From: Sipunculus nudus
Lineage: Eukaryota > Annelida > Sipuncula > Golfingiida > Sipunculidae
Length of the DNA: 64,000 nucleotides
Assembly: GCA_026874595.1 (NCBI GenBank)
Contig: CM049306.1
Coordinates: 24,167,019 to 24,231,018 of the forward strand
Direction: 5' to 3'
Shown here: positions 24,300 through 62,800 of the stretch, piece by piece
Layout of the letters: each line of letters starts with the position of its first letter
How positions within the stretch are numbered: the first letter of the stretch is position 1
Made by a program: the position numbers and the translations under genes
Notes under the pieces: model-generated
The model's input: the letters and a program-made list of their open reading frames with translations, nothing else
Told to the model about the DNA's origin: nothing
The model's database searches: none

Positions 24300-26690
24300 A
24301 ACTTCCATCCCGATAGACCTTGCTCTATATACCCACCCTCCCATAATAAGGGTTTTCACAAAAGTAACGTCCGTCACGTTAGACCTTGCTCTATATATCC
24401 ACCCGCGTATAATCGAGGCTTCACTAAGCTCACGTCCGTTACGTTAGACCTTGCTCTATATACCCGCCCTTCTATAATCAAGGTATTAATCCAGCTAACT
24501 TCCATCACGATAGAACTTGCTCTTTCTACCCGCCCTCCTATAATAAGGGTTTTCACAAAGGTAACGTCCGTCACGTTAGACCTTTCTCTATATATCCACC
24601 CGCGTATAATCGAGGCTTCACTAAGCTCACGTCCGTTACGTTAGACCTTGCTCTATATACCCGCCCTTCTATAATCAAGGTATTAACCCAGCTAACTTCC
24701 ATCACGATAGAACTTGCTCTATATACCCACCCTCCTAAAATAAGGGTTTTCACAAAGGTAACGTTCGTCACGTTAGACCTTGCTCTATATATCCACCCGC
24801 GTATAATCGAGGCTTCACTAAGCTCACGTCCGTTACGTTAGACCTTGCTCTATATACCCGCCCTTCTATAATCAAGGTATTAACCCAGCTAACTTCCATC
24901 ACGATAGAACTTGCTATATATACCCACCCTCCAATAATAAGGGTTTTCACAAAGGTAACGTCCGTCACGTTAGACCTTGCTCTATATATCCACCCGCGTA
25001 TAATCGAGGCTTCACTAAGCTCACGTCCGTTACGTTAGACCTTGCTCTATATACCCGCCCTTCTATAATCAAGGTATTAACCCAGCTAACTTCCATCCCG
25101 ATAGACCTTGCTCTATATACCCACCCTCCTATAAAAAGGGTTTTCACAAAGGTAACGTCCGTCACGTTAGACCTTTCTCTATATATCCACCCGCGTATAA
25201 TCGAGGCTTCACTAAGCTCACGTCCGTTACGTTAGACCTTGCTCTATATACCCGCCCTTCTATAATCAAGGTATTAACCCAGCTAACTTCCATCCCGATA
25301 GACCTTGCTCTATATACCCACCCTCCTATAATAAGGGTTTTCACAAAGGTAACGTCCGTCACGTTAGACCTTTCTCTATATATCCACCCGCGTATAATCG
25401 AGGCTTCACTAAGCTCACGTCCGTTACGTTAGACCTTGCTCTATATACCCGCCCTTCTATAATCAAGGTATTAACCCAGCTAACTTCCATCCCGATAGAC
25501 CTTGCTCTATATACCTACCCTCCTATAATAAGGGTTTTCATAAAGGTAACGTCTGTCACGTTAGACCTTGCTCTATATATCCACCCGCGTATAATCGAGG
25601 CTTCACTAAGCTCACGTCCGTTACGTTAGACCTTGCTCTATATACCCGCCCTTCTATAATCAAGGTATTAACCCAGCTAACTTCCATCACGATAGACCTT
25701 GCTCTATATACCCACCCTCCTATAATAAGGGTTTTCACAAAGGTAACGTCCATCACGTTAGACCTTGCTCTATATACCCGCCCTTCTATAATCAAGGTAT
25801 TAACCCAGCTAACTTCCATCACGATAGACCTTGCTCTATATACCCACCCTCCTATAATAAGGGTTTTCACAAAGGTAACGTCCGTCACGTTAGACCTTGC
25901 TCTATATATCCACCCGCGTATAATCGAGGCTTCACTAAGCTCACGTCCGTTACGTTAGACCTTACTCTATATACCCGCCCTTCTATAATCAAGGTATTAA
26001 CCCAGCTAACTTCCATCACGATAGAACTTGCTCTATCTACCCGCCCTCCTATAATAAGGGTTTTCACAAAGGTAACGTCCGTCACGTTAGACCTTTCTCT
26101 ATATATCCACCCGCGTATAATCGAGGCTTCACTTAGCTCACGTCCGTTACGTTAGACCTTGCTCTATATACCCGCCCTTCTATAATTAAGGTATTAACCC
26201 AGCTAACTTCCATCACGATAGAACTTGCTCTATATACCAACCCTCCTATAATAAGGGTTTTCACAAAGGTAACGTCCGTCACGTTAGACCTTGCTCTATA
26301 TATCCACCCGCGTATAATCGAGGCTTCACTAAGCTCACGTCCGTTACGTTAGACCTTGCTCTATATACCCGCCCTTCTATAATCAAGGTATTAACCCAGC
26401 TAACTTCCATCCCGATAGACCTTGCTCTATATACCCACCCTCCTATAATAAGGGTTTTCACAAAGGTAACGTCCATCACGATAGACCTTGCTCTATATAC
26501 CCGCCCTTCCATAATCAAGGTATTAACCCAGCTAACTTCCATCACGATAGACCTTGCTCTATATACCCACCCTCCTATAATAAGGGTTTTCACAAAGGTA
26601 ACGTCCATCACGTTAGACCTTGCTCTATATACCCGCCCTTCTATAATCAAGGTATTAACCCAGCTAACTTCGATCTCACGATAGACCTTG
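24300..26690. repeat. 197-bp higher-order repeat (three monomers), first block
   Basis: Three monomer types alternate. A has CACCCGCGTATAATCGAGGC; B has AAGGTATTAACCCAGCTAAC; C has AATAAGGGTTTTCACAAAGG. Together they give 197 bp, and landmark positions recur at exactly 197-base steps (24571, 24768, 24965, 25162). In places A is skipped, leaving 132-bp B-C units (near 25.69-25.82 and 26.46-26.64 kb). Confidence 0.9.
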
Positions 26691-29390: not shown

Positions 29391-29799
29391 TAACGTCCGT
29401 AATGTTAGACCTTGCTCTATATATCAAACCTCCTATAATCAAGCTTTCACTCAGCAAACGTCCGTCATGTTAGACCTTGCTCTATATATCCACCCTCCTA
29501 TAATCAAGCTTTTCACTCAGCTATCTGTACCCGCCCTCCTACAATAAGGTTTTCACTAAGCTATCGTCCGTGATGCTCGACCTTGCTTTATACCAACCCT
29601 CCTGTAATCAAGGTTTTTAGAAGGTTATGTTCCATCATGTTAGACCGAACTCTATATCCACCCTCCTATAATCAAGGTTTCAGAAGGCTATGGTCCGTCA
29701 CCTTAGACCTTGCTCTATATACACCCTTTTGTAATCAACGGTTTTATGAATCTATTGTCCGTCTACGCTAGATCTAACTCTTTACCAGCTCTTAAAAAG

Positions 29800-37673: not shown

Positions 37674-38602
37674 ACTGCCCACCTGGGCATTTTTTGTAGG
37701 ATGAGTAAAAAGTTGATGTAGGGCAAGTAAAAGCAAGATTTTACTTGCCCACCTGGGTGTGTTTTTGTACGGCAAGTAAAAGCTAGATTTTACTTGCCCA
37801 CCTGGGTGTGTTAATGTAGGGGGGGGGGATAAAAATTAATGTAGGGCAAGTAAAAGCTAAATTATACTTGCCCACCTGGGCGTGTTTATGTAGGGTGAGC
37901 AAAAAATGATGTAGGGCAAGTAAAAGCTAGATCATATTTGCCCACCCGGGCGTGTCTATGTGTGTTGGGGGGGGGGTAAAAATTGATGTAGGGCAAGTAA
38001 AAGCTAGATCATACTTGTCCACCTGGGCTTGTTTATGTAGGGTGAGTAAAAAATGATGTAGGGCAAGTAAAAGCTAAATCATACTTGCCCACCTGGGCGT
38101 GTTTATGTAGGGTGAGTAAAAAATGATGTAGGGCAAGTAAAAGCTAGATCATACTTGTCCACTTGGGCTTGTTTATGTAGGGTGAGTAAAAAATGATGTA
38201 GGGCAAGTAAAAGCTGGATCATACTTGTCCACCTGGGCTTGTTTATGTAGGGTGAGTAAAAAATGATGTAGGGCAAGTAAAAGCTGGATCATACTTGCCC
38301 ACCTGGGCTTGTTTATGTAGGGTGAGTAAAAAATGATGTAGGGCAAGTAAAGCTAGATTATACTTGCCCACCTGGGCGTGTTTATGTAGGGTGAGTAAAA
38401 AATGATGTAGGGCAAGTAAAAGCTAGATCATATTTGCCCACCCGGGCGTGTCTATGTGTGTGTGGGGGGGGGGGTAAAAATTGATGTAGGGCAAGTAAAA
38501 GCTGGATCATACTTGTCCACCTGGGCTTGTTTATGTAGGGGGGTAAAAATTGATGTAGGGCAAGTAAAGCTAGATTATACTTGCCCACCTGGGCATTTTC
38601 AA
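37674..38602. repeat. 70-bp minisatellite, about 13 copies, just upstream of the right-hand gene
   Basis: The unit contains ACTTGCCCACCTGGGCGTG, TTTATGTAGGGTGAGTAAAA and AATGATGTAGGGCAAGTAAA. TTTACTTGCCC and GGGCAAGTAAA are reverse complements, so each unit can fold on itself. Variants carry G-runs in place of GGGTGAG. The array ends only 65 bases before the proposed start codon. Confidence 0.88.
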
Positions 38603-38702: not shown

Positions 38703-41700
38703 GTATGCATTTTTCTCCATTCATGAGTGTGTTATTGTGTTAGTATTCACAACTTAAACTCACACAATCATGAATGTAATCTCATGAAATTTTCAGGATG
38801 GGCCATTTATGAATGGATTAGATTCTATTATGGATCTGGAACATGAGCTGGATAGTGTAATGTCGTCAAAGAATATTCCCAAATGTTAAATTAGTTATGT
38901 CTGGGAATATGGGCAGAATAAGTGAATGCAAACAATGTTTAGGGAACATCCCACAATTGGGACCTTCCCCACCCGGGCCCCCTCCCCCCCCCCCCCCAAA
39001 CATATGGTAGAGGGTTGCATTTCTTAGAAAAGGGGCCTAGCCAGGAGTGAGGGAGGGGAGGGGGCCAAAATATTTGGCAAAGGCAATTGATATATATATA
39101 TATATACTATGGTTGCCTTTTTGTTTGCAAGGCTAAGAAATTCACATTATTCGCGAAATGAGAATAATCGTGAAAATAAAACCGTCATGAATAACAGGTC
39201 CCATTGTTGAAGGCAAAGTTGAAAGTAAAACGCTGACATTATGAATAATAATAGATTGTGTATGTTCAAAGAATAATTTTTAAAATAACAACAATTTTCC
39301 AATTTTTGGCCATTAACAAACAATATTTTGTAAATAAGATTTTTTGCACAATATTTAATATAATTACTTCACATAATAATGCTTATACTCTGTGTATCAC
39401 CTAGCATGTTAAAATACAATGAGATATATTAGTTGTATAAGAGGATTTAATAAAAAAAGTATCATTATTGGCAGGCTCAAACCTTTGACTGTAGAATAAA
39501 CAATAAACAATACATTAATTACTGCATGTGCAGGTGCAATGCTTCATATTGAGATGAATCCCAAATATGCTGATACCAGTAACAGAAATTTTATGATTTG
39601 TTTTAGGAAATTTAATCACTATTAGATACTGCACTGGATGCGGGGGAGGGGGGGGGCACCCCCTTGGTTACACTCTAGTAGAATGCAGGTTTCTAGATAT
39701 CAATACTGTAAATTCATAATCATCCAGAGAAATTGCAGCAACTGTAGATCAGCGGTTGTCATTAAAATAAACACTTGCAATAAATATATTTGTTTTCACA
39801 CGGAGAAGTAAATGTGGCCTTTTCAGCCTATGGTAAAAGATTTTTTAATGGTCGTTGCTAATTTATATCACAAATTAATGTATCTTACAAAATGAAATTA
39901 TATTTTACCATATGCTTGCTTTGCATGAGCAGAAACAATTGGTTGTAACCAGTTCCATGAAAAGTGCAGCCAGTTTAATTAGTTATGAAGTAAAAAGTTA
40001 AAAACAACTGATTATAATAGCCAATTATGGTACTGATGTTCAATTGTTTATAGGAGAATTCGGGTCATGCCATACTTGTATCCTTTCAGGAACACAACAA
40101 GTTGCAGATATCCTCCTAGAGGTCTTGAGGAAGAAGATGGCTGCTGCCATAGACCCAGCATTAGACAATCACATCTATGGGACTATTTATGGTAACTGCG
40201 TGGGGGATGCTATTGGGCTGCTGACAGAGTTTATGGTTAAAGATGAGGCTAAGAAGGTATGTGCTATCATCAGATAAAAACTCAATACTTTAAAACTTAA
40301 TATTTCAATAAATAACATTTTCTTATTGAAACCATGGAGTTTCCTTCAAATAAACTTAACCAATTTAATATATGTGTAGTGTAAACTTTCCTTTTAAAGA
40401 GAGCTATATATAGATACCAGTATCGGTAAAATTTATGAATGATAATATTTTTAAAGTGTTTTTTCCTTTAGTTAGATTATTGTTCTTGTAGTTATACATA
40501 ACTTTCAGGATCAGTTTTCTTCAGAAATAATAATGATAAAACAGGTTCACAGATAAGGCCAAAATAAAAAAAAAGGTATGGTTCTCAGGCACTTTTTTTC
40601 AGAAATCAATGCGGGCGGGCAGTTTTTTTATTTTTAATTTTTTGGTATGTTTCGATAAAAATGTTAAATGATAAGGGAAAAGCTTGATAATAACATATTT
40701 ATTTTGCTAAACAAGTAAAAGTACTACATAACAAAGGAAATTGTATGGTTTTATCAGTTTGAAAGAAATGTTCGAGCCGCTGCAGCTCAAAATTGGTAAG
40801 TTTCTATTAATAATCAAAATAAAAGTTTTTGATGCGGGGGTTCAAAAATGATGCGGGCGGTGCCTGAGAATCATACCTTTTATTTTTTTTGGCCTAAAAT
40901 GTCTTTCTTTTGGCTGTCTTTCAGAAATTGATTGCTAGGGACATCTACAGGCAAAAAGCAGAACTAAAATTAGAGATACTAATCTATATAATTAATACAG
41001 AGTTGGGTTTTTTCTAGACCACAGTTTACCTGCTTCCTTTCCAATTTGACCCTCCAAATTTGGCACACATATCGGCGGTGTGCTCTTCTAGGACAAGTTT
41101 GTTTTATTTTGCGGGATTATGCCCTATTAAGCTGATTATTTAATAATCTTAATATTTCCCTATTAGGTGCCCCTATTTCTTTTGTGCTGCAAGGTCCACC
41201 ACGCCTGTGATGCTTTTTTAGGAGGAGCCTCAGGGATTTTCACTGGCCTGTTAAGACCGTGGCCAGGAAGTAAAGATTTTAAATTCAAGCACAAAACACA
41301 TGTCCACATGAATCTTTTAAAAGGGAGAATTTTCCGTTGAGTGGACACAAAGAGCCAAGACCCTTTACACGTTCACCGCTTTTTAGGTTTACAGGTGTGT
41401 TGATTTTTATACATTTAGAAGTATCTTTCCATGATAACCATTGTTTTAATTGTTCGGCCGACTTATTGGTTGTTTGGAAAAAATTTGTTTCAAAAGGAAG
41501 CCCTTGGGAGATTGCACACACTTCTAAGGGTCCCCAATCACTTGGGGACTTTGAAACCCCTGCCAGAATCTACTAATCAGTCGTTCTTTCATACGTGCAC
41601 GTTTCATGTAAAACATTGTCATGGTTCAGAAACATGGGTTCACCAGGCGAGTGGCAGAACAACTGCATACAAATGGTCGGCTTTTACTGGGGGACAAAGG

Positions 41701-44700
41701 AATAACCACTTATAATTATTCCTTTGTGGAATTGTGATAATGGCACTTTAGAAAATAATATATTATGGTGATTCCGATTACCTCCAAAAATGAAATGGAT
41801 TACGGATGCAGTTTAACTCTACCCCTCTACAAATTTTCAGCAAAATCTGTATATAACATTTTGCGTTAATTTGCTGAATGACAATGCAACGAACCAAGGT
41901 TGAAGTGGTTTCTTTGCTAAATGCTTTAATCAAAATATATCATACTGCTTTCTGTTTATCTGGGAGAGTTGTCAATTTGCATCAGGCCTGCTTATTCCGT
42001 GACAATTTACAGTTCTTAAACCAAAAATTTAATACTGTTGGAATATATTTTTCTAGGCCTAACTTTTTCACATTGGCAGCTATAGTTTTGCGTACAAGAG
42101 ACTTCAACGACATATGCATGTTTATACAAATAACGCATGTGTCTGTAAACATGCCTTAGACTATACCCTCAACTGACTACATTTAATAAACATCTTCTTT
42201 TAAGATGTCGCCTGAGCTTCAAATAATACAAAGCATCTTTAATTTAATTTCACTGTAGAATGCTTCTTTATACAGTCATTATATCTACGATATTTCCTAA
42301 GCAATGAAGCTGTCAGACCTGTGTTGTTTATCAGGAAAAAAATTATTTTTTTGTGTGATTTCTGGAATAGAATAATTCTTCTTTCTATGTTGATATTTTG
42401 GGGGAGGGTGTTCCTCGAACATTCAAGCAGAAGTAATCTTTATATCATTTATGTGAAACACATGACAAAAGTTCCTGCAAAAACTTTAGGATTAAAATAT
42501 GCGTCATTAAGTTCCTATCAGCTCATTATGAAAATATGCATCAGAGAAAGCCGTGGATTTTCCACAGGAGCAGCTAGTATTATATGAATGATCACACTAT
42601 GTCCAAAACCAATTACTGTCTGACCCAGACTGACATCAGGCTTACAGAGAAAACTGCACACTGACAGGAATATTCCATGTATAATCAGGATCATTATATG
42701 AATTAAAGAACGAAGGAATAAAGTCTGTAGAAAAAAGCTTGAATAAAATATTTAATAAACACACACAAACATACACCATATGGTACATGCTTTCCAAATA
42801 CCAAACAACCCTTATCACAAATTTCTTTATTAAGACTTCTTATATATAGCCAGATGAGATAAATATGACAGATATATATTCTAGGGCTGTAACAATGTAC
42901 GGAATAACTAATGCATTTAATTGACAACCCTTCAGTTAAATTTTAATAGATTCTTAAATTAAACTCCAAATGGATTTGATTTGATTAAATTTTTTTTTTT
43001 TGAGTATGCCACCCTGAAACCCTGTGTGAGCTGTCAAATTTAACAGGGCATGCTGTTATGTCTAGGCTTTTTATCATGTATGTGCTCTAGATCAAGTTTC
43101 AGTGCTCTCTAGTAGATTGTTCTACTGTCATTACAACAATGTTATTGATAAACTGAAGGAGAAATACATAGTGAAGTAATGTACATTACTAATAAAGTGA
43201 AAACAGAATTAGAAATTGAAACAGATGTAGAGAATTGATAATTGAAATGGATACTGAAGCCCCTAAAAAAGGACAGGTCTAAAAAAACATTTACATTACC
43301 ATGTTTTTTTTTAAAATTTATTTGCCAGTAGGGTTAATTTATTACCAGTGATAACCACTTTTATTTGCTTTGCAGAAATTTAGCACCAACAAAGTTTGGA
43401 TAAATTAATGGATAGGTAATTATGATCTGTTCATTGCAATGTATAGTATTAAGTTTTTTGACAGATGAAAAATCCCATTCTGTATGATGTGTGAATTCAA
43501 ATATTTCATTTGTCTTACCAGTGTAGTGGAGAGTAAGTTTTAAATCTCATTGCCATGTGGAAGGTTAACAAAGGTACAAGCATGTGGTATTTTGTACAGC
43601 ATTATGGCAAATTCAAGAAGAAGCTGGAATATGAACACAAAATGGAGGTTGATGATAAGCACAGAGAGAGGTGGGCAGTCGGTGATTGGACAGATGACTC
43701 TGACCAGATGATACTCATCATGGAATCCATTGTTGAAAAAGGCGGCCAAGTGAGTGCTTAATTTAGCTTGTTGATGTTATTTATGTTAACATTCTAAGAG
43801 TGGCTCACATTGAGGCCGAATGACATTTTGGAAACAGTGAAATCTCGCCTGATGACCACCTTGCCATGATGATGAGAAGCAAAACATGGAGGTGAAACCA
43901 TCCACCATTCAAAATTGTCAAACTGTCAATTAACATACCAAAAATTTGAAATTTAGATTTTACAAAATTTCATTTGTCTTTTCTGCATAATAAATCTTGG
44001 CACATTAAGCAATCACATGAGTCAATCAGATTCTTGTAGTAAAACACTTGTCTGGCCCTGCACTGTGCATTTAGTAAATACATGATATTTTATGGCTGTA
44101 AAATTGTCCGCAAACGCCATTGTCAACAGGACATTTTCACCACATATATTAAGTTAATACTAATGGAGCAATGATTCAAATTGATATTCACTGATCATCT
44201 GTTATGAGGTGACGCATCATAACGCATGTATAACGTACAAACTGTAACAGCCATGATCTTCTCTTGGCTTGCTTGACCTTCATGTCTTGCCAATTTTATC
44301 ACCAGCTCAAATGCCGAGGCAAGGTTCCAAACCAAACGGATATGCCAAAGGTATCCAAATGAGTACTTGGCTGACAAGGTCAATTAAATCAAATGACCAA
44401 TAGACGATTCCCTGTGTATAGTGACCTTACCAATTATGCAGTCTAACGTCTCCTGTATTTTGCTGCAAGGTGCTGGCTCAAGAGGTTTTGAGCTGGGTAT
44501 ATTTAACTGCAGAATTTTGGGAATTAAAGCAATAAAAACACCTATGTGATGTTATGATCTACAGAAGTCAACAAAAGAGCATGCAGGAACTAGGGCGTAC
44601 TTTTCCTAAAATTAACATGACAGTCTGCCATTCTGTAAAGCACTGACTAGAAGATTTTCTTCTAATTGAATTTCCTTTATATATATATGTACAGTTATTA

Positions 44701-47700
44701 AGTATAAGGCATCTTTACTTGCGTCCGACGCACAGACATATCATGTACCCATGCATAATTTTGCCAGTTGAGCACCTGCATGGGACCCAAAGAGGTTGGG
44801 CAAAAGGGATTATTTCTTACTGTAGATCTCAAGTGTTTTGTGACAGCTTCTATGTGAGTAAATCTTTAAAATTTTGCAGTCATATGTGAAACTAGAAAGC
44901 AGTCAGAGACCACACACATGCATATACCTCCACCAGTATTATGGATCACCAGATCTTGAATATTATCAGTATCCTAAAACTTTGATGGGTGGCATGCCAG
45001 AGCAGTAATGATATGAATCAGGCAGAGAGAAATGTATGTCAGGGTTCACAAACTTGATGGTTGCATCATAGGTCAGCTGTGCCCGCCAGATCATAGGCGG
45101 CTTCAGTCAGTTGACTCCTGGACATATGCATTCACTGATTTGGATTTCACACTTAAAGTTTCTACTGATACTAGTGAATGATGAATGTTGAGATCTCACA
45201 GTAGGAAAGATTCCTTTAAACAAAAACATGATAGTGATCTAAGTGACATCCAAAATTTAATTCAATTAAATTTCTTTGGGTAATACCAGAACCCTCCACA
45301 AAATTCATCAAAACCAATTCATAACATTCATGACAAGCCAAAAAAACCAGTCGAGAGAAAACAATATGCCCGGTATAGTTATGATAGTAGTGGAGTTACA
45401 GAGAACCCTAGACAGTTGAGAGTTAATACAGGTAAGGTTGAATGGATTCACATTTCACATTCTCTAGATGTTGATTTCTTATCAATCACACCAAAACCTC
45501 TGTTATCTGAATGTTGATTACACAAATTTAATTTGCCCAAATTAAAATATTAAAGAAGGAAATTTTAATTTAGTGCTATTTTGTGTTAGTTTATGTAAAT
45601 TATCAATTATGTCTGAACAGTCAGTGGATATTAGAGATATAAGCATACTAGTTTACCTTAATTAGCAAAGTTCAGTGGATTAGAGGTTATGTATCCACCC
45701 CTGTCGATCTGAGCTTTGACCTGATCAAAGTTTGGGATGATTTAATTGCAGGTTTTAAAGTGACCAAATTCATGTTTAAATATTAATATATAATTATACC
45801 TTCATATATATAGTGTTTCTAGTATCATATACCTTTGTCATCACAGGTAGACCCTATTGATTATGCTGTCAGAATCCTCAAGTGGTCCAAGAAGGGTTTT
45901 GCAGAGCTGAATGATTTTGTCGGGATGGGGATTGGTGACACAACAAGGAAAGTTTTGTTGCATAGAGACTACCTCACAGACCCTCATCAAGTAAGTGTTA
46001 CACTGGATTGTATACAAGTAGTAGTTCATATGGTCCTGCAGGCATTTTATAGTTAACATCTGTTAAAGGTTTTAAGATCAATCTCTTATTAGCAAACCTG
46101 TTTGCTTTTGCAATGGTGTGGCATCATCCATCTATTTCAGAAATGACAGGATTTATGCAAATTTATGCAAACGCATTCACATGACTCACATTATGGGATT
46201 ATGGTTTTGGTGATGCCAACTGGATCCACTTATATATTTTAGGGGAAAACCTAGCAAACCTTTAAAAATCATGCAGCATAATTGTTTAACATTTCACAGA
46301 AAAGGGGTTCTCTCAGGTTTGATCAAATGGTTCAAGTTCATTGATTTTGGGATTCATGAGTAAAGGGAATCCAAAGGCATACAAAGACCACTATGTAAGC
46401 TAGTTAAAGCAGGAGCTAGCATAAACAAACTCGATGCAAAAGTTGGTAACCTGAGATTCATGTTTGAGATTGAGATTTATGTGGCACCACCTGCATCAAT
46501 CTATTTTTTATTGGGGGGGGGGGGGGGGGTTATAGTAATTTTGGCCTCTTGCAGCCATAAATTAATTAATCTTTTTGACAAAACTGTCAAGTGAAATTGT
46601 ATAATATTTCACGGGAATAATCATAGGGTAGTGCTTTCTCAAGTAAATAAGAATGGTTGCAGTTATAGGATTTTTTGTCAAGTTATGGTAAGCATAACTT
46701 GATCATGCGGCCAAGTAAACCTGGATCAGGCAAAGGGATATAATAGTTTTCTTCTGCTTAGTCAGAAACAATTGTTTGGTGGTTCCTGTTCTGTGACTGA
46801 GAGGGTGAAGTTTGTTCAAATGGTTCTATTTCAAAGATTGTTTAGAATGTATTCTTATTTAGAGGTTTCTGAGGCTTATTTAGAGGTTAATGCATTAATA
46901 AATATCTGTATTCTGAGTTTGCATTAAATATGCTTTGTTGGTATAAAAAAAACACAGTATTTTGCTGCAAAAGTTAGAATAGTAAAACCTGTCTGAAAGA
47001 CTACCTGTCTAATAAGACCACCAGTCCAATTAGACCTGTCATGTGTGAAATGAAAGCATTCAGTCACTGGTTATAACTGACCTGTGTAATAAACCCACCT
47101 GTGATTTAAGACCACATTTTGCAGTTGCTTTGATGACCTGCATTTGTTTGGATGAACTGTGGATTGAGAGTGGTTGATGTCTTCACACACCTCACACCAG
47201 TGCACAACAATAAAAAAATTCCTTTTTACCATGTGCCATATCTTTATACAATGAGCTTTTTTACTCGCTAGATTTCTTTTCCTTTTTTTGCTCTAGTTAG
47301 ATCTTAATATGTAGCAGTCTGTATGTTTTTTAGCTCAGCTGACTGAAAATTAACTGAGGTATAGGAATCACACTGTCTGTCGTCTGTCCGGGGTCTGGCT
47401 GTTTGTTATCAGGACATAAATGTTAACAGCTAACCTCAGAAACTTGTTACTAAATGATCATGAAGGTAAATATAAAATCTCCTAATCTGAAAACCTGAAA
47501 TTAGGTTAGTGGGCTCTATATCCTCCTATAGGGCTCTATATCATGGGGCTGGTAAATACCCCTGGAATAATAGAAACCAAATACAAATTAAACCTCCAGT
47601 TTCTTGATAATAATGCTTGGATTGCCATGAATCTTGCCTTAAATATTGATCATTGCTAGTTTTGTCAGTTTCTGAAAACTGGTGGCGCCACCTGTATTAT

Positions 47701-50700
47701 TCCTAATTTTAACAATTTTTTTAGCTCAGCTTTCTGAAAGTCATCTGAGCTCTAGTGATCACTCTTGTCTGTCGTCTGTCTGCCTATCTGTCTGTTAATA
47801 GGGCACAAATCATATAAACACTAGTCCTGGAATCTTTTCACTGGATATCTAGGGAGGTCCATGAAAAGTCTTCTTGGAAACCTGAAATTAGGTCTAAGTT
47901 ACCCATATCCTTCAAGCTATTGGGCTCAGAATTACCCCAAAGAATAATCAAAAATGTGTTACAAAAGCTCCATTATCTGAACAACTGATACGTTGATCAC
48001 CATGAATCTGTGCATGCATATTCATCATGGACTGTTTCATCAGTTCCTGCAGACTGGTGGTGCCACCTGGATATTTTTTAAATGTCTTCCTATTCAGCTG
48101 AGCATCATGACCAATGGGTCACTTGTTATTCATCCACAGGCTGCTGTGGATGTATGGGAAGATAAAAAGAGGAATGTCGCACCAAACGGCGGAGTGATGA
48201 GGACCAGTGTTTTGGGCATCCATCAGTATACTGACATCGATAAAGTCATAGAAAACACACTGAGCATCTGTAAAACCACTCACGCTGATCCAAGGTCAGT
48301 ATACTGACATAGGTAAAGCATAGGAAACACAGTGAGATTTGTAGATTGAACCACTCATGCTGAACCAAGGTCAGTATACTGACATAGATAAAGCATAGAA
48401 AACACACTGAGCATCTGTAGAACCAATCACACTGATCCAAGGTCAGTATACTGACATAGATAAAGCATACAAAACACACTGAGCATCTGTAGAACTACTT
48501 ACACTGATCCAAGGTCAGTATACTGACATAGATAAAGTCATAGATAACACACTGAGCATTTGTAGAACCACTCACACTGATCCAAGGTCAGTATACTGAC
48601 ATAGATAAAGTCATAGATAACACACTGAGCATCTGTAGAACCACTTACGCTGATCCAAGGTCAGTATACTGACATAGATAAAGCATAGAAAACACACTGA
48701 GCATCTGTAGAACCACTCACGCTGATCCAAGGTCAGTATACTGACATAGATAAAGCATAGAAAACACAATGAGCATCTGTAGAACCAGTCACACTGATCC
48801 AAGGTCAGTATACTGACATAGATAAAGTCATATATAACACACTGAGCATCTGTAGAACCACTCACGCTGATCCAAGGTCAGTATACTGACATAGATAAAG
48901 TCATAGATAAAGTCATAGATAAAGTCATAGATAACACACTGAGCATTTGTAGAACCACTCATGCTGATCCAAGGTCAGTATACTGACATAGATAAAGTCA
49001 TAGATAACACACTGAGCATCTGTAGAACCACTCACGCTGATCAAAAGTCAGTATACTGACATAGTTAAAGCATAGAAAACACACTGAGCATCTGTAGAAC
49101 CACTCACACTGATCCAAGGTCAGTATACTGACATAGATAAAGCATAGAAAACACAATGAGCATCTGTAGAACCACTCATGCTGATCAAAGGTCAGTATAC
49201 TGACATAGATAAAGCATAGAAAACACACTGAGATTTGTAGATTGAACCACTCATGCTGATCCAAGGTCAGTATACTGACATAGATAAAGCATAGAAAACA
49301 CACTGAGCATCTGTAGAACCAATCACGCTGATCCAAGGTCAGTATACTGACATAGATAAAGCATAGAAAACACACTGAGCATCTGTAGAACCACTCACGC
49401 TGATCCAAGGTCAGTATACTGACATAGATAAATCATAGAAAACACACTGAGCATCTGTAGAACCACTCATGCTGATCCAAGGTCAGTATACTGACATAGA
49501 TAAAGCATAGAAAACACACTGAGCATCTGTAGAACCACTCATGCTGATCAAAGGTCAGTATACTGACATAGATAAAGCATACAAAACACTGAGCATCTGT
49601 AGAACCACTCACACTGATCCAAGGTCAGTATACTGACATAGATAAAGCATAGAAAACACACTGAGCATCTGTGGAACCACTCATGCTGATCAAAGGTCAG
49701 TATACTGACATAGATAAAGCATAGAAAACACACTGAGCATCTATGGAACCACTCACGCTGATCAAAGGTCAGTATACTGACATAGATAAAGTCATAGATA
49801 AAGTCATAGATAACACACTGAGCATCTGTAGAACCACTCACGCTGATCCAAGGTTAGTATACTGACATAGATAAAGTCATAGATAACACACTGAGCATCT
49901 GTAGAACCACTCACGCTGATCAAAAGTCAGTATACTGACATAGATAAAGCATAGAAAACACACTGAGCATCTGTAGAACCACTCACACTGATCCAAGGTC
50001 AGTATACTGACATAGATAAAGCATAGAAAACACACTCAGCATCTGTAGAACCACTCACGCTGATCCAAGGTCAGTATACTGACATAGATAAAGCATAGAA
50101 AACACACTGGGCATCTGTAGAACCACTCATGCTGATCCAAGGTCAGTATACTGACATAGATAAAGCATAGAAAACACACTGAGCATCTGTAGAACCACTC
50201 ATGCTGATCAAAGGTCAGTATACTGACATAGATAAAGCATAGAAAACACACTGAGCATCTGTAGAACCACTCAAACTGATCCAAGGTCAGTATACTGACA
50301 TAGATAAAGCATAGAAAACACAATGAGCATCTGTAGAACCACTCACCCTGATCCAAGGTCAGTATACTGACATAGATAAAGCATAGAAAACACAATGAGC
50401 ATCTGTAGAACCACTCACACTGATCCAAGGTCAGTATACTGACATAGATAAAGCATAGAAAACACACTCAGCATCTGAAGAACCACTCACGCTGATCCAA
50501 GGTCAGTATACTGACATAGATAAAGCATAGAAAACACACTGAGCATCTGTAGAACCACTCATGCTGATCCAAGGTCAGTATACTGACATAGATAAAGCAT
50601 AGAAAACACACTGAGCATCTGTAGAACCACTCATGCTGATCCAAGGTCAGTATACTGACATGGATAAAGCAAAGAAAACACATTGAGCGTCTGTAGAACC

Positions 50701-53700
50701 ACTCACACTGATCCAAGGTCAGTATACTGACATAGATAAAGTCATAGATAACACACTGAGCATCTGTAGAACCACTCACGCTGATCAAAAGTCAGTATAC
50801 TGACATAGATAAAGCATACAAAACACTGAGCATCTGTAGAACCACTCACGCTGATCCAAGGTCAGTATACTGACATAGATAAAGCATAGAAAACACACTG
50901 AGCATCTGTAGAACCACTCATGCTGATCCAAGGTCAGTATACTGACATAGATAAAGCATAGAAAACACACTGAGCATCTGTAGAACCACTCATGCTGATC
51001 CAAGGTCAGTATACTGACATGGATAAAGCAAAGAAAACACATTGAGCGTCTGTAGAACCACTCACACTGATCCAAGGTCAGTATACTGACATAGATAAAG
51101 TCATAGATAACACACTGAGCATCTGTAGAACCACTCACGCTGATCAAAAGTCAGTATACTGACATAGATAAAGCATAGAAAACACACTGAGCATCTGTAG
51201 AACCACTCATGCTGATCCAAGGTCAGTATACTGACATAAAAAACGCATAGAAAACACACTGAGCATCTGTAGAACCACTCACGCTGATCCAAGGTCAGTA
51301 TACTGACATAGATAAAGCATAGAAAACACACTGAGCATCTGTAGAACCACTCATGCTGATCCAAGGTCAGTATACTGACATAGATAAAGCATGAAAACAC
51401 ACTGAGCATCTGTAGAACCACTCACACTGATCCAAGGTCAGTATACTGACATAGATAAAGCATTGAAAACACACTGAGCATCTGTAGAACCACTCATGCT
51501 GATCCAAGGTCAGTATACTGACATAGATAAAGCATAGAAAACACACTGAGCATCTGTAGAACCACTCACACTGATCCAAGGTCAGTATACTGACATAGAT
51601 AAAGCATAGAAAACACACTGAGCATCTGTAGAACCACTCACACTGATCCAAGGTCAGTATACTGACATAGATAAAGCATAGAAAACACAATGAGCATCTG
51701 TAGAACCACTCACACTGATCCACTGTCAGTATACTGACAGAGATAAAGCATAGAAAACACACTGAGCATCTGTAGAACCACTCACACTGATCCAAAGTCA
51801 ATATACTGACATGGATAAAGCAAAGAAAACACAATGAGCATCTGTAGAACCACTCACCCCGGTCTAGGGTCAGTTCTGACACAGATAAAGTCATAGAAAA
51901 CACACTGAGCATCTATGGAACCACTCACACTGATCAAAGGTCAGTATACTGACATAGTTAAAGCATAGAAAACACACTGAGCATCTGTGGAACAACTCAC
52001 ACTGATCAAAGGTCAGTATACTGACACAGATAAAGTCATTGAAAACACACTGAGCATCTGTGGAACCTCTCACTCTGATCAAAGGTCAGTACACTGCCAT
52101 AGATAAAGTATAGAAAACACACTGAGCATCTGTAGAACCACTCACACTGATCCAAGGTCAGTATACTGACATAGATAAAGCATAGAAAACACACTGAGCA
52201 TCTGTAGAACCACTCACACTGATCAAAGGTCAGTATACTGACATAGATAAAGCATAGAAAACACACTGAGCATCTGTAGAACCACTCACACTGATCCAAG
52301 GTCAGTATACTGACAGAGATAAAGCATAGAAATCACACTGAGCATCTGTAGAACCACTCACACTGATCCAAGGTCAGTATACTGACATGGATAAAGCAAA
52401 GAAAACACAATGAGCATCTGTAGAACCACTCACCCTGGTCTAGGGTCAGTATACTGACATAGATAAAGCATAGAAAACACACTGAGCATCTGTGGAACCA
52501 CTCACGCTGATCAAAGGTCAATATACTGACATAGATAAAGCATAGAAAACACACTGAGCATCTATGGAACCACTCACGTTGATCAAAGGTCAGTATACTG
52601 ACATAGATAAAGCATAGAAAACACACTGAGCATCTGTAGAACCACTCACACTGATCCAAGGTCAGTATACTGACAGAGATAAAGCATAGAAATCACACTG
52701 AGCATCTGTAGAACCACTCACACTGATCCAAGGTCAATATACTGACATGGATAAAGCAAAGAAAACACACTGAGCATCTGTAGAACCACTCACCCTGGTC
52801 TAGGGTCAGTATACTGACATAGATAAAGCATAGAAAACACACTGAGCATCTGTGGAACCACTCACGCTGATCAAAGGTCAATATACTGACATAGATAAAG
52901 CATAGAAAACACACTGAGCATCTATGGAACCACTCACGCTGATCAAAGGTCAGTATACTGACATAGATAAGCATACAAAACACAATGAGCATCTGTAGAA
53001 CCACTCACGCTGATCCAAGGTCAGTATACTGACATAGATAAAGCATAGAAAACACACTGAGCATCTGTAGAACCACTCACACTGATCCAAGGTCAGTATA
53101 CTGACATAGATAAAGCATAGAAAACACACTGAGCATCTGTGGAACCACTCACACTGATCCAAGGTCAGTATACTGACATAGATAAAGCATAGAAAACACA
53201 CTGAGTATCTGTAGAACCACTCAAGCTGATCCAAGGTCAATATACTGACATAGATAAAGCATAGAAAACACACTGAGCATCTGTGGAACCACTCAAACTG
53301 ATCCAAGGTCAGTATACTGACATAGATAAAGTCATAGATAACACACTGATTATCTGTAGAACCACTCACGCTGATCCAAGGTCAGTATACTGACATAGAT
53401 AAAGCATAGAAAACACACTGAGCATCTGTAGAACCACTCACACTGATCCAAGGTCAGTATACTGACATAGATAAAGCATAGAAAACACAATGAGCATCTG
53501 TAGAACCACTCACACTGGTCTAGGGTCAGTATACTGACATAGATAAAGTCATAGAAAACACACTGAGCATCTGTAGAACCACTCACCCTGGTCTAGGGTC
53601 AGTATACTGACATAAATAAAGCATAGAAAACACACTGAGCATCTGTGGAACCATATTTTATATATCCAATAAAATAAAACATGGGCCAATAATTGCCAAT

Positions 53701-56700
53701 CTTGAGCCAAAGTTTCTGTTAATGTGAAACCTATCCAGGCAATTAATTGTCCTCTGCTACTCTGAAGGTACCCTTGAGGGGGGACATAGAAATGGTGAGC
53801 TCAATTTCCAATATGGATGACCTTGCAGGCCTCCCACAGTGGCATAAAATCATAAAATTCATAAAATTTCCCAAATTGGCATAAAATAGCATAAAATAAC
53901 TAACAAAATCATAAAATCATAAAATTTTGGTGTAATTACCAAATAACATTTTTTTTAACTTCAAAGTCTATGGCTATTTTGCATAGTGCCCAAACTTCCA
54001 TGTTTGTATATTTTGCATTGCATTTTACACAAGTGGTGTGTTATCTAGAGTAAAAATAGTTGTTTCTTGTTAAGCTTGAAAATATCATTTGCTATATCCT
54101 TAACAGCTGTTGAGATGTTCATGACCTAAACTGCTGCACATATATTTGATGTATATGTCGCAGTGTAGAGGGGAATCCAGTTGAGTTCTGAACTCAACCA
54201 GTTGAGATCTAAATAGTTGAGATGGGAATAGTCACTGTTATTCCAGTCTCAACTAGTTGACATTGGAATATTCCAATGTACACTGGTTAAGATTGGTATT
54301 GCCAGAAGTGAATCAGTTTACTTTAGGATCTCCTGAAATACACTAGTTCACTTTGAAATATCTAGATAAGTCTACAGTTTTATTGCTTTACATTTTATAA
54401 CAAATGCTTTTAGATTAAGTTCAATTCAATTCATTTATTTTACACAAGAATATATACATTATACATGAAATTGCTCCTTTATATATAGTTATTCCTGTGA
54501 CAAAGAGGACTGACTCATATAGTATATATGTCCTCTCAGTATTATCATTAAATGTAGTAGAATATATGGTGCACTGTGCAAGAAGAAAACTAAAATTTCA
54601 GAGAAAACAAACTAAATAAAAATTTGATTATGAAAATGAAGTAAAATATAATAAATATGCTTCTTAAATGGAGGAAAAGTATTTTCTCAGACAGTGCTTA
54701 AATGTTGATATTGTACTACAAGGATCATTATCTTATAATCTTAATATTGTTCCAAACTCCAGCCCCTTTAAATTGTAAAGTTTTGGAAAAAATGCATTCT
54801 TCTTGTTCTGTTATGATGTACATCTAAGTATTTGCAAATGATTCAAATACAGTTAAAGGTGGCATTTTATAATTAATCTCATACATAAATGAACCGACTC
54901 TATATATTGTAGATATATTCTGGATAAGCTATTGAAAAAAAAATTGTGATAATAATAAATAAATATGTAAAATCATGATATTGTGGCAGTGATATATAAA
55001 TGTTTTATTCTTTTATATTCTAGTCTAGTTTGAAATAAAAGTGCTGCTAGGTTTCATTGTACATTGTTGTTTATAACTGCATGTGATCTCCATTCTCCAG
55101 ATGATGTTCTTTACACCAGGTTTACATTAGATGAAGGCTCCACAGAAGAAAACTTTATGACCCTTCATGTCAAATGTCTATATTTAAACAATTCATTCCT
55201 AGGAATATAGTCTGTAGCTGTAGCAGAAGTTGTTGGAATTAATGCCATATTTAAAAAAAAATTGTTATAATATCATTATTTCTTTATAACAGTACTTGAT
55301 GTTGTTTCACAAAGTGATGCGGGGGTTTAAAATTGATGCGGGCGGTGCCTGAGAACCATACCTTTAATTTTTTTTGGCCTAAAACATTTTTTTTCAACAT
55401 TTGATGTGCTTATCAGTGTTAAATTGATCCTTGAGTTTTTAAATTATTTATTGTAAATGCTGCATACTGCATAGTTTAAATTGTGAATACAATTAGGTTA
55501 TTGAATTGCTACACATGAATATCTTGTCTGTTTCATTCTCTCAATTTTGTATATATTAATTTTAATATCTATGCTTTTATTCAGCTGGTCAGTGATCTAA
55601 GGTGGGCCCTGTATTGTCACCCAAGCAAAAATTAACAGATAATCAGATATTCTTGTGTACACTTAACAGAAATTGAAACTTAAAATAAATCTTAACAACA
55701 AGGGTAAGATATTCTACTGTAGATTATTGTATTTCAGGATATTCCAAAATAGACTGTTTCACCTAGTTACATATAAGCTATAATAATCAGAAATTCTAAA
55801 GAAAACTAGTGTATTTCAGAATATCCCAAAGTAAATTGGCATGTGTGGATATCTTAATGTGAACCAATGTACATTGGAGTACATTGGAATGGTGTCAACT
55901 AGTTGAGATCAGATTAAAAAACTATTTCCATCTCAACCGTATAGATGGGAATTCCCATCTCAGCTGAAAGATGGCCAGTTGAGATGGGAATCCCGATCTC
56001 AACTAGTTGCAATGGGATTCCCTTCTCAACTTATAGCTGAGTTCCGAACTCAACTGGATTCCCTTCTGCACTGTGACATTTACAGGTATGCATAATGCAT
56101 CAGCAGCATGGTTTATATATAGGCTGCAAATGATTAATATAGCCATTAAGAGATTTCTTTCTAGATTAGTGCTTGAATTTAAAGTGTTGGAATGTAAAAT
56201 TGAATTCTTTTTTAATGTAGGGGTAGATAGAATATAGAAAATAAGGCCAGTTTGAGGAAAAGTATAAACTTCTTATGCTGTAGTCCTGGAAAGAATCATA
56301 ATAAACATTCATAGCTAACTTGTTGGGGATCTTCTTGGCTCATTTGTTTAGGGACTCCTACATGTGTGTCCCAGTAGAAGGAGTTACAAACTTTAGAATC
56401 AGGTTTCTGTTTTTTCAACTGTATTACCTATGTTATAATCATGTGCAAATGCTATGAAAATTATAGGGAACTAGTCTGAACAACATAAACTAACATATAA
56501 AAGGAGCCTGTAGAGAGCATAAAAAAGTCATTAAGTTTTACAAAAAATGTCACAAAATAAAAAAAATTTTCTCAAAAGTGAGTGGGAGGCCTGACCTTGA
56601 CACATTTTTCAATGTCACAGCATCGATAACACTAAAATGATGTTAATGCAATAACTCAAAAAGAATTTGAGGCAAAGTCACCAAACTTGCAGTATTGACT

Positions 56701-59700
56701 TACCTAATGAAGGCCTAGGTCAAGTTGAATATGGATGAATTTCATGCAGTTTTCAAGGTTACATAGGTAATCTTGGTGTGTGACATTGACCCATCTCAAA
56801 TTTCATACATGTATTCACAACACTAGCTATTTCCACATCAGGCGGGGACAATACTAGATCTGTACCACAGATCAACTTTTCCCTTAAATTGTTACATTTT
56901 ACTTTACTCAATTATACAGTATTAAATATAATTACTTGTGTAATTCTACTAATGGCAAGTCTACTATGACTCATTCAGTAGCATACATGATAGAAATATT
57001 AGTTCTAATTTATGGGTTCTGAAACAGAGTTTTATAACTTGAAGGTGTCTAGCATCTTGTGTTGCTGTGACAACAGCCATAGCTTTTATGCTCAGAAGAG
57101 ACAAGCGTCATTTGGACAAAAAAGGGAAATACAATGAAGCAACCATCATGGAGGACAGTTTCCAGTTGGCAAAGAATTGTTTGCAGGATGAAAGCATGGT
57201 AAGGGTGCCAGTTCCTTTATTTTTAACCTCTCGATCCTTATGGAAACTTCTCTATTATAGACACCCTTCTATTATGGACACATGAGGCAGTCTGATGAAA
57301 TGTCGGTTCTGGAGTCCTTAATCTCTCAGATACAGAAACCTCTCTGTTAGAGCTAAACACCACAACTCAGTAAGGCAGACAACTCACTAATGCGGACACT
57401 AAATCTCAGTCCCTTCAATTTTGCCTCTATATTTTGTTAAAACTCAGACAACCAAATTTCCCAGACAACAGACAAACTTTCTGGTCCCACCAGCATATCC
57501 AGTACATATTATGACCCTCTAAAGTGGACAGACATACATCGCGAGTCCTATTTTGTTCATGTATCTGCCAGGAGATGGTGCTCCTAGGTTATGACCTGTA
57601 TTGGTCAAAAACTTTGGAATTTAATTTGTAAAGATACATCACAAAATTGTTGTTTATTTCTATAAATGTGTTAATAACACAATCATTATTAAATTAAGAT
57701 TGGCAGGTCAATTAGGAAAAAATAACTGAAACAGCTTTTAATTCGACAAGACCACCATAAAAGATTGCAGTCTGTGCTTTGTGATTGGCGTCTGGCCCGG
57801 AGAGCTTTAATTATGGTTTGCGACAGTTTGCCACTTTATTATGGTGAATGCGAGATGAAGACTGTCCTTAAACAAATAATCATGCTGTCCTGATGCTGTC
57901 TGTAATCAATCTTCAATATATCTAGTGCAACCATCCATGAAATATGCTTACTTAGAAGATAAAGCATGGTAAGTTGAAATGAAACTGCCAAGATTAGTTT
58001 GTGAGGCCTAGATGATGTTTGTCTTTCTTTAAAATAATTATATTTTATAAATTGCAAGTGCATATTTAAGCTATTTAGAAAATGATTTTAATCAAATTTA
58101 TTAAGCCTATTTCAAATTAGGCGTACATTTAATGAAAACGTAGGATATCAGAAACATTCAATGATGAAACTGGCGCAGTATACAGAACTCCTCTAAACAG
58201 GACAATTCACTTATAAGGACTAAATCCTCCAGTCCCTTGAGTGTCTGGCTTAGGGGAGTTTCACTGTATATATTTATATATAATATTTACAGTTTGTTTA
58301 TTTACATAATTCACTAGTTAGCTCAGCTGACTATAAGTCATCTGAGCTATAGTCGTGGTCCTTTGTCCGTCGTCCGTCCATCCGGCCGTTAACAGGGCAC
58401 GTTTTAAAACCGTTGGACCTACGAATCCAAAATTCTGCATACCAATAGATGTCCCCAAAATCTCCTACCATACCAAAAATTGGGTCATTAGGACTTTGTT
58501 CCTTTGAGATATTAAGGAAAAACCTCTGTTTTCCATAAAAAAAAGCCATTGTTACACTTCAAAGCTGCCTTATATCAAAACCACTGATCTGTTTTTGATC
58601 ATATTTAGTATTCATATTTTTCCATACATTTTCTGTGCACATACCAAAAATTAGGTTAGTATTTGGTATTATTTTGAAGTTATGGGCCCAAATATAATGC
58701 AGTTTCTTAAAAATCAGGAAATATATTTGCTCACTTAACATGAGAATTGCTGAAGCTGGAGACTTTTTTTTCAGGAATATAACTTTATTTAATCAAGATT
58801 CAATTGTTTACCCAAAATTAGATCTGAATTTCGCAAATTTTTCAATTTATTAGCATAAATAAAAAATCAGTACCTTAAATTTTGTCCAACTTTGGCAATG
58901 GCACATTTTTTCCCTGTAAGCACTGTTGATTTAATTTTTCACAGCATATATACATAAGGATTTAATCTTTTAAAATCTGAAATTTCAAAGGAATTGTTTG
59001 AAAAGAGTAGCTTTTATTCAAGTTTTCATACACCATGTCAAGTGTTGTTTACATCTGGCCCACCTAGTAATACAGTCTTCACTTGCATTATGTAACCCAC
59101 CCCAGGCAGCTTGCCTTGGCTTAGCTTGGCCACTACTAGCAGGCTTCTCCTCTGCCCTGCACTCCCACCCCTCAGCTGGTGAATAAACTAGATGAATGTT
59201 ATAATTTTCTGTATTTTATTTTATTTTTGGCTATGCTACATTTTAGATTTTGTATTGTACCACCAGGGTTACAATGATTAGAGTGCACATTTAATTGTGT
59301 CCACAAAGTGATGTATTGCTATGAAAGTGTGGATGTTCATCAGAGTGCTCATTAAAGATTTTAATTTGTTTGACTTATAACTCATGGTTGTATCAGTTGT
59401 TACATGATACTGGCTAAATAATCAAAATTTATATTGCTGATCCTTTATTTCAGTTCATAAAATTAAACATTCCCGACTCCAGTTTGCTCCTGGTATAATA
59501 TATTGGATGTTTTGATCCTTGGATTAATTTTAACACATGTATTAGTTTCATAGTTGAGAATACTTTTCTTTTTTCCTGACACCATTTAAAAAAATAATAA
59601 TATTTAAATTTTTCCTGTTAATGCTGTGGATTTAATTTTCACAGCATGTACACATTAGCATTTCATCTGTAAAAATCTGAAATTTGAAAATTATTTTATC

Positions 59701-59869: not shown

Positions 59870-62800
59870 TTGTATATAGTCATAACTTGTTGCGAAAAAC
59901 TGATGGCAGAGTGCTGGATAAGTGACCAGAGCATTTCTATTTTGTATAGAAAGAACTAGGTTTTCTGCAGGCATTTCATGACTAATTAGTTTTTGTACCA
60001 CACGCTCAGAGCGTGTGGCACTCTTCAGATATTGTAGCCTTATAGCTCTGAGCGTGTGGTACAAAGCCAGTTAGTTACAAAAATTAGTACAAATTAGGCA
60101 GTTGACTGTAATAGAGATATATACCCAGATCAGAGAGGTTCTAATAACCTCAAGATTTACCTCTGACAGGACCACTTCAGGTGTCCTCACTAGAGAGAGA
60201 GGTTCTATAGCCTCTAGATTAACCTCTGATATGCCACTTTATGTTTCCTCACTAGAGAGGTTCTATAACCTCCAGATTTACCTCTGACAGGACAAATTCA
60301 GGTGTCCTCACTAGAGAGGTTCTATAACCTCCAGATGTACCTCTGACAGGACCACTTCAGGTGTCCACACTAGAGAGGTTCTATAGCCTCTAGATTAACC
60401 TCTGATATGCCACTTTAGGTGTCCTCACTAGAGAGGTTCTATAACCTCCAGATTTATCTCTGACAGGACCACTTAAGGTGTCCTCACTAGAGAGGTTCTA
60501 TAACCTCCAGATTTACCTCTGACAGGACAAATTCAGTTGTCCTCACTAGAGAGATTCTATAACCTCCAGATGTACCTCTGACAGGACCACTTCAGGTGTC
60601 CACACTAGAGAGGTTCTATAGCCTCTAGATTAACCTCTGACAGGACCACTTCAGGTGTCCTCACTAGAGAGGTTCTATAGCCTCTTGATTTGCCTCTGAC
60701 AGGACCACTTTAGGTGTATTTACAAGAGAGGTTCTGTAACCTCCAAATCTACCTCTGACAGGACAAATTCAGGTGTCCTCACTAGAGAGGTTCTATAACC
60801 TCCAGATTAACTTCTGACAGGACCACTTTAAGTATCCACACTAGAGAGGTTTTATAACCTCTGTTTATATACTAGAGAGGTTCTGTAGCCTCCAGATTAA
60901 CCTCTGACAGGACCACTTCAAGTATCCACACAATAGTACTAGATAGGTTCTATAACCTCCAGGTGTACCTCTGACAGGACCACTTCAAGTGTCCATACTA
61001 GAGAGGTGCCTTTCATATAGAGATGTCCCTGTGTGAACGGGTCCACTGTATGCACATATATACACTAGACCTTTGTTTATCTGAACAATGATTAGATTAT
61101 GTATAGTCTAATGCCTACATGGTTTTCTGTGAAAGATATATCCACCAGTTATACATATTTGGTATGGTATTCCGTGAACCATTTAAATTACTGAGGCTTT
61201 ACTAGTCTGTTAGCGCATTCTATAGGGCTTTTAAGATGAAACAGCACAGAAAAGAACTGCATTGAACATTATCTGATTGGCTTATTGCTACATAGTTTAG
61301 CCAATAGAAGAGACTGTTTTAGATACAATATTTAATATTCATGATAAATATGAAAGTATGCAGACATTGACATGGAGTAGATTTTATTTTTGGTCAGAAA
61401 ATAAATTTTATGAGAAAAAGTCTGGTTTTAATGAACATGAAAGAACATAAGCTAAAACTGGGCTCTTAAAAGTCATGAAAAAAATACATTATTCTGCAAG
61501 CATTTAATCATGTTTGTCTTATGCAGCATTATAGGTTGACAGTCATGTTGATACCTTATGATAAAGAGATCTGAAAATTCTTTGATGTTCTCAGTTACAT
61601 ATCTCTAAATGATTGTATATATAAGGCTGGTGTAGTTTAATACATACTTTATTTTTTTTTTATTTTGGATGACCTGTATGAGATTGTGAAGAAAGACAAT
61701 GTACAGGCCCTGACAAACCACCTCAATAATGTAGACTTAACTGGAAGCATCCAGCTCACATATGAGGTAGAGACAGAGGGTCAGCTTCCATTTCATTTAT
61801 ATGCTGGTCATCACACACCCTGACAGTTCAGTAAAGATGGTATACTACAAGAAGACCTAACCAACCACTACATCACAAGCTAGGAGTTGTCAAAACCCTA
61901 CCTGATCTCTGTGATGCCACTTTCAGTGAAATGGAGGACAGACGACAGGAAGTAAAGCAGTAGAGCACAGGCACAGCTGACTCATGGGTACCTGATGTGC
62001 CAGCTAGGTGAACAGTCATTTGAGGCCAACAGGAGAGAGTCCATAAAAGTATTACGAAGGTAACAAGAAAGCTAAACCAAGTCTCGCTCCAGAGGCCAAG
62101 TCTGTATCCCACACATGTTGCAGGACAGTTAAAAGTCCATGTAGCCTTCCTCTACAAAAAGTATGCTATCATGAAGCAAGGGTGTACTCTCCATCAAACT
62201 CTGGTTAAACAGAAGGACAAACGACCCCCTGGAGGACACTTTACACAGTGTGTACCAGATATCATGCAAATCCTGTCATAAGGCTTCATTTGGTGATGCA
62301 AACAAAAGAAAGTTATCAAAGACACAAAGAATGTGGCCTGTATGAGATCACAGCACACAGCATCCCCTCATATCCTGCACAGATCAGACTATTCAAGAAA
62401 ACCATGAAATCGACTTGGACAGTATTACCTTAATGGCTAGAGAAACGGCCGGGGAAACCAGATGGAAATGTGAGGCAATTCACATTCAGATAGAGATGTG
62501 CTAAAACCTTGATGGGGGATAAAACAACTTACCCAAACTCTACAAACCAATTATAGCTCTATCGGTGATCAGCAGCAGCCTGCTGTCAGATGAAGTCTGC
62601 TGATATGATTGGACAAAACTGTTGATCACAATAACTAAATAGGTAGCTATGCATAAGAAATCGATGAAATGTTTTTAAATAAGTTTTGAAATGGTGACCC
62701 TTCTGTTTCAGGTTTCAGAATTTAAGCAGCACATGTTTGCCAAGTCTTTGGACTCCCTGAAGCTAGATGAGGACAAGAAAATAGGGTACACCTACAAATG

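Follow-up and report, generated by a model that had tools for sequence, protein, structure and literature searches.

The 64,000-nucleotide stretch of the Sipunculus nudus genome analyzed here (assembly GCA_026874595.1, contig CM049306.1, positions 24,167,019 to 24,231,018; hereafter the window) contains in its right half, on the + strand, an ADP-ribosylglycohydrolase gene for which six coding exons, A to F, were placed. A 5.4-kb tandem array starts inside the 3′ end of exon D and extends into the following intron. The initial annotation of this region had described the end of an exon, together with its splice donor, as amplified about 74 times, and this count held well. Tandem Repeats Finder (TRF) reported an array at 48223–53653 with a period of 72, 74.8 copies, and a score of 7581. 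Wrap-around alignment of 48223–53655 to a 73-bp consensus resolved 75 units: one exonic, 73 complete and intronic, and one truncated. With head-to-tail copies and a period of 72 bp, inside the range of 10 to 100 bp used for the class, the 75 units constitute a minisatellite.

The gene was assembled from exons that are all on the + strand. Exon A (40137–40256) provides 40 codons from a possible start ATG and ends in the donor AAG/GTATGT (the slash marks the splice junction); it was placed from sequence and coordinates. Exon B (43600–43749; 50 codons, donor CAA/GTGAGT) was placed by a PF03747 match in its translation and by its splice sites, and exon C (45847–45990; 48 codons, donor CAA/GTAAGT) by sequence and splice sites. 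Exon D (48140–48294; 155 nt, 3′ end in phase 2) was delimited by unit alignment and Pfam. It had been called exon 6 in the initial annotation and is the fourth of the six placed coding exons, in a count made with no special search upstream of exon A. Splice sites defined exon E (57045–57198; 154 nt, acceptor TTGAAG/GTG, phase 2, donor ATG/GTAAGG) and, with Pfam, exon F (62712–62870; 53 codons, donor GCT/GTAAGT), at which the domain is still incomplete within the window. GT donors are found at all six exons and AG acceptors at all five of exons B to F, and the phases are consistent throughout.

The joined exons encode a 294-residue partial protein that belongs to the PF03747 family (155.8 bits against a gathering cut-off of 26.2 bits, E 2.6e-45) and covers positions 1–259 of the 287 in the profile. 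Since the end of the profile is not reached, the gene probably continues past the end of the window. Two NCBIfam models matched far under their cut-offs: Tri1 at 51.1 bits (cut-off 490) and DraG at 36.7 bits (cut-off 337). A PDB search with the same protein returned three distinct sequences, 1t5j MJ1187, 6dre, and 2cwc, which we take to be prokaryotic. The acceptor of exon E (57015–57050) looks weak, with AAG/G and 9 of 16 upstream pyrimidines; the other four placed acceptors are CAG ends with 9 to 12.

The array begins with an exonic founder unit, unit 0 (48223–48295, + strand), which the alignment defines as the last 72 bases of exon D plus the first G of the intron; the initial annotation had assigned 73 bases to the exon, one more than an exon ending at 48294 can hold. 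The first intronic unit follows this founder, itself inside exon D, without a gap. The complete intronic units 1–73 (48296–53598, + strand) measure 70 to 97 bp, mostly 72: 54 units are of 72 bp, ten of 73, three of 71, two each of 75 and 70, and one each of 85 and 97. Nested 12-bp expansions (CATAGATAAAGT) at 48890–48934 and 49781–49813 account for the 97- and 85-bp units. The last unit (unit 74, 53599–53653, + strand, from TRF and alignment) is truncated ahead of the donor and is followed by other sequence. The 73 complete intronic units include 55 distinct sequences, and the only exact repeat of at least 200 bp in the array is one of 340 bp at a lag of 359. A chance origin of the array was excluded by the TRF score and by the similarity of the units over their full length. 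The antisense strand of the array (48246–53800, − strand) holds stop-free frames of up to 181 codons with a 24-residue repeat rich in Cys and Phe (CFLCFIYVSILTLDQCEWFYRCSV). These frames probably follow from the unit length, 72 being 3 × 24, combined with one stop-free frame; no sign of a gene was seen in them, in an inspection that included no dedicated search.

The repeated unit is coding sequence of the ADP-ribosylglycohydrolase family. When the 24 residues of the segment were masked as X, the PF03747 score fell from 155.8 to 120.0 bits, a cost of 35.8 bits. The TH of the segment is common to the query and both displayed PDB alignments, and the P of the segment and the AS of exon E (in the order TH..P..AS) are common to the query and one of the two, 6dre. 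A second copy of the unit was not found elsewhere in the 64-kb window, where the best match outside the array is 16 bases long (E 0.2). Because the repeated stretch is family coding sequence, the exon founded the array, and these sequence comparisons identify exon D as its source. Thus, the part of the initial annotation that saw coding sequence amplified with its donor right beside the exon was borne out.

The junctions between units also behave as had been proposed, so that the intron contains dozens of donor-like sites. At each junction, ...CCAAGG is joined to TCAGT..., which regenerates a donor, usually AAG/GTCAGT. All 74 junctions have GT and 58 of them the full AAG/GTCAGT, so that the 9-mer of the first donor recurs unchanged 57 more times. 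With an exonic first unit and a GT at every junction, the array spans the exon/intron boundary with units that carry donors. The first 70-odd bases of the intron are a copy of the exon. Hence, positions +2 to +6 of the first-junction donor, a predicted GTCAGT at 48295–48300 (+ strand), are copied coding bases, matching exonic 48223–48227. The exonic base corresponding to the junction G is an A (48222), so the start of unit 0 is no donor. Exon D is the only one of the six placed exons with C at donor position +3, the other five having A or G, as expected if this base derives from a CAG codon. At the far edge of the array a native donor was not seen; the last unit breaks off ahead of the donor position.

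The reading frame separates the first junction from all others. Exon D joins exon E from phase 2 to phase 2 (AG/G) through the donor GT at 48295–48296, and the frame is continuous; on frame and phase, the first junction is predicted to be the sole array donor that joins exon E in phase and hence yields a full-length protein. When the first donor is skipped, an in-frame TGA is met at 48305–48307 (+ strand), and any later donor in the array keeps this stop (AGG TCA GTA TAC TGA). The suggestion that any of the equivalent units could serve as the real donor is therefore not supported. Nor is the stop maintained by a unit length divisible by three, as had been argued: the first intronic TGA ends all read-through, and 19 of the 73 units are not 72 bp long. 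The read-through product up to this TGA covers only positions 1–162 of the 287 in the PF03747 profile.

Two consequences are predicted for transcripts from later donors. First, the distance between the stop and the exon junction that follows it would be 62, 134, 206, 279, and 352 nt for donors 2, 3, 4, 5, and 6, respectively. Nonsense-mediated decay usually requires a distance of 50–55 nt, which all five values exceed. Second, later donors lengthen exon D from 155 nt to 230, 302, 374 nt and up (computed for donors 2 to 6); as the exons become ever longer, exon-length limits should favor the first one or two donors. A weaker GTAAAG site in the first intronic unit, positioned after the TGA, scores 6.61 on a rough donor ranking based on human base frequencies.

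Divergence among the units was calculated with gaps counted and insertions ignored. Pairs of intronic units differ by 7.0% on average, and intronic units differ from the exonic one by a mean of 7.5%. The intronic unit nearest to the exonic one is unit 21, which differs by 2.7% and carries an additional 12-bp insertion. Three columns set the exonic unit apart from most intronic ones: at column 15 it has a C and at column 50 an A, neither of which occurs in any of the 73 intronic units, and at column 23 it has a T, which 15 of the 73 share. Because of these differences, the array and the present exon have drifted slightly apart, and at columns 15 and 50 nothing indicates that the exon was recently overwritten. 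The array had been called young, which is only partly right: the intronic units differ by 7.0% on average, and the exonic states at columns 15 and 50 have no counterpart among them. Units 31–34 are identical letter for letter to units 36–39, and lag 5 is the richest in identical unit pairs (9 of 68) among lags 1 to 15, which argues for growth in blocks.

A 14-bp perfect palindrome, GTCAGTATACTGAC, lies over the first donor (48295–48308, + strand) and is present at 66 of the 75 unit starts. Its exonic copy is a 12-bp core (48223–48234) that starts exactly at the left breakpoint, 48223. Conservation of columns was assessed for seven column sets, two of them palindrome sets, by counting distinct variants. 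The least variable block of the unit is GTCAGTATACTGACA, whose 15 columns contain 6 distinct variants compared with 13.2 expected (random-column P 0.009, the lowest value among 73 circular positions); for the 14-bp palindrome by itself, P is 0.017 and the rank 2 of 73. After correction, conservation of the palindrome and of the GTCAGTATACTGACA block is marginal. An RNA hairpin, GUCAG-UAUA-CUGAC, is predicted in the two folded stretches that span the first junction. The palindrome could have acted as a hairpin aiding the first duplication or, at the RNA level, could form a fold that covers the donor; the folding energies, however, are ordinary.

Tandem duplication of the exon/intron boundary in place, followed by unequal exchange, is very probably how this locus arose. 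A 73-bp segment, made up of the 72-base end of exon D and the first intronic base, would have been duplicated in tandem, and the 12-bp palindrome with which it begins may have helped. A microhomology, ATCCA, noticed by eye at both breakpoints was rejected as a cause, as it would not leave AGG between the end of one unit and the start of the next. Unequal exchange and multi-unit duplication would then have produced the 73 complete copies and the truncated one. The donor now at exon D would be a product of the array, made of a G and copied codons, with the native donor presumably lost. Selection at the protein level should keep the first junction in use, because it is the only array junction that preserves the frame. 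The remaining junctions would be decoys, either ignored or giving truncated transcripts prone to decay.

Several observations weigh against this account. First, the use of 48295 in the mRNA is deduced from frame and phase, and on the same rough human-frequency score, which gives no more than a ranking, the donor of exon D (8.42) is fifth of six (A 9.74, B 8.94, C 9.69, E 9.55, F 6.05). Second, the array is not freshest beside the exon: the first intronic unit ties as the most diverged, with 9 differences from the consensus. Third, distance from the exonic unit climbs only weakly along the array (Spearman 0.24, a value reached by 7 of 73 circular shifts; 0.18, reached by 15 of 73, without column 23). 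The eight units nearest to the exonic one all lie within units 5–21, which had suggested a strong similarity gradient from the exon; this candidate was dropped on the weak result of the full test. Fourth, conservation of the junction GT, counted by distinct variants, is not significant (P 0.15). Fifth, none of the four stretches folded has an unusual energy (z −1.13, −0.58, 0.97, and 1.17).

A functional role for the copies themselves is a possible but doubtful alternative. In such a scheme, dozens of equal donors would be sampled, through competition for U1 or through recursive splicing at AAG/GT, and the length of the array would set the fraction of productive mRNA. The sole productive 5′ splice site would then be satellite DNA, and the other copies, clustered and equal as donors, would by their number tune productive splicing through U1 competition or stepwise use of AG/GT, giving a heritable, length-variable control of enzyme dose; we consider this, too, a long shot. 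The 57 unchanged recurrences of the 9-mer of the real donor are in line with the idea, as are the low variability of the GTCAGTATACTGACA block and the palindrome and the statement, in the portion of the IFI6 literature consulted, that repeat units of that human gene act as donors. Most junctions are also AG/G, with a mean of 10.0 of 16 upstream pyrimidines (74 junctions) compared with 9 of 16 at the acceptor of exon E, so that stepwise splicing through the array is possible. However, the conservation is marginal once corrected, the palindrome sets being two of seven, and the nine donor columns show no significant conservation (P 0.29). Selection on the donors, considered on the strength of GT at 74 of 74 junctions, was set aside given this value and that for the GT. 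Furthermore, with a later donor the exon would lengthen to 230, 302, 374 nt and beyond, and the stop would come at least 62 nt before the junction, as computed for donors 2 to 6.

Birth of the intron itself, by tandem duplication of an exonic segment bearing AGGT (the Rogers model) with exons D and E formerly one, is quite improbable. Such duplication has been described as a source of introns for ATP2A1, fission yeast, and potato RdRp in the excerpts available of two papers (PMC4974935, PMC3443670). In potato RdRp, according to the same excerpts, the duplicate crosses an intron-exon boundary and a new donor arises from formerly exonic sequence (PMC4974935, PMC3443670); in fission yeast, introns lie across repeated 24-bp AGGT copies (PMC4974935). 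As far as these excerpts go, the likeness is that duplicated exonic AGGT sequence supplies splice sites in both cases. At the present locus, the joined coding sequence would read CCAAG/GTGTC, which contains AGGT, as do most unit junctions. The model, however, places donor and acceptor both in duplicate copies, and the acceptor at 57045 does not belong to an array unit: the array closes with a truncated unit and is separated from exon E by 3,391 bases of other sequence (53654–57044). By eye, the sequence 5′ of exon E (TTATAACTTGAAG) is also unlike the unit end (CACTGATCCAAG). Because the acceptor lies outside the array, we do not class the locus as a gained intron of the Rogers type; here, duplication seems to have made an existing intron longer and given it a different donor.

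Expansion by the assembler of a few real copies is very unlikely. The single 340-bp exact repeat is what such an artefact might leave; against it stand the 55 distinct sequences among the 73 complete intronic units and the fact that no other exact repeat in the array reaches 200 bp. These features make it unlikely that the copies were built up from a few units. Finally, the landing beside the exon of a pre-existing satellite or a repeat-bearing mobile element from which the exon took its end, despite the abundance of tandem arrays (about 28.6% of the window, from ten merged arrays hand-picked from TRF rows) and the satellite-like arrays that Helentrons carry in the oyster Crassostrea gigas (PMC7492417, in the part available), is extremely unlikely and was rejected, because what is repeated is conserved coding sequence of the family, of which no other copy was found in the window.

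With tandem arrays making up this share of the window, the region makes minisatellites freely, and an array that starts at an exon end is not mechanically astonishing. Of the ten merged arrays, that of exon D alone overlaps a placed exon. A 7-kb minisatellite region at 22412–29763 has 66-bp units, a 197-bp period over much of its length, and long frames on both strands. Two more minisatellite arrays, at 37717–38594 upstream of exon A and at 60132–61007 between exons E and F, overlap no placed exon. The unusual features of the exon D array are that the donor was carried with it and that so large an array has been tolerated.

Compared to known systems, the array has its nearest precedent in human IFI6, of which it appears, by analogy, to be a large variant on the same principle. 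The IFI6 minisatellite reportedly consists of about 26 copies of a 12-bp unit at an exon boundary. In S. nudus, in contrast to those short units, the coding bases alone number 72 per unit, the array reaches 5.4 kb, and the extra donors would bring a stop. A paper on the IFI6 minisatellite, cited by title in PMC2572611 and PMC4526556, announces that it provides multiple splice donor sites, and an excerpt of the latter reports two downstream repeat units used as donors and three mRNA species (PMC4526556). In both, as far as these sources tell, a minisatellite supplies several donors or, in S. nudus, donor-like sites. In human duplicated genes, according to the text available of PMC2812944, internal tandem repeats located where exon meets intron change how transcripts are spliced or create novel introns. 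These are likewise minisatellite copies at exon-intron boundaries, and that text gives them an average 30-bp unit, 4 copies, and 160 bp, compared with about 74 copies and 5.4 kb here. The palindromic intronic minisatellite CeRep25B of Caenorhabditis elegans is described, in the portion available, as enriched near regions of alternative splicing, in a text that does not use the term "donor" (PMC4039745). The literature matches listed, a coverage that leaves out most subscription papers, contained no other instance of the end of an exon multiplied dozens of times within the following intron. The view that such a structure is rarely documented is fair, then, with the qualification that related cases, IFI6 and the repeats at human exon-intron boundaries, have been published.

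Collectively, the S. nudus gene presents an exon/intron boundary turned into an array, in which 58 of 74 junctions carry an identical 9-base donor at steps of about 72 nt and one choice is predicted to be productive. As such, it would provide a natural test of how a choice is made among equal donors, whether by exon-length limits, first-come selection, or U1 occupancy. It also suggests a route from coding sequence to splice site and on to satellite.

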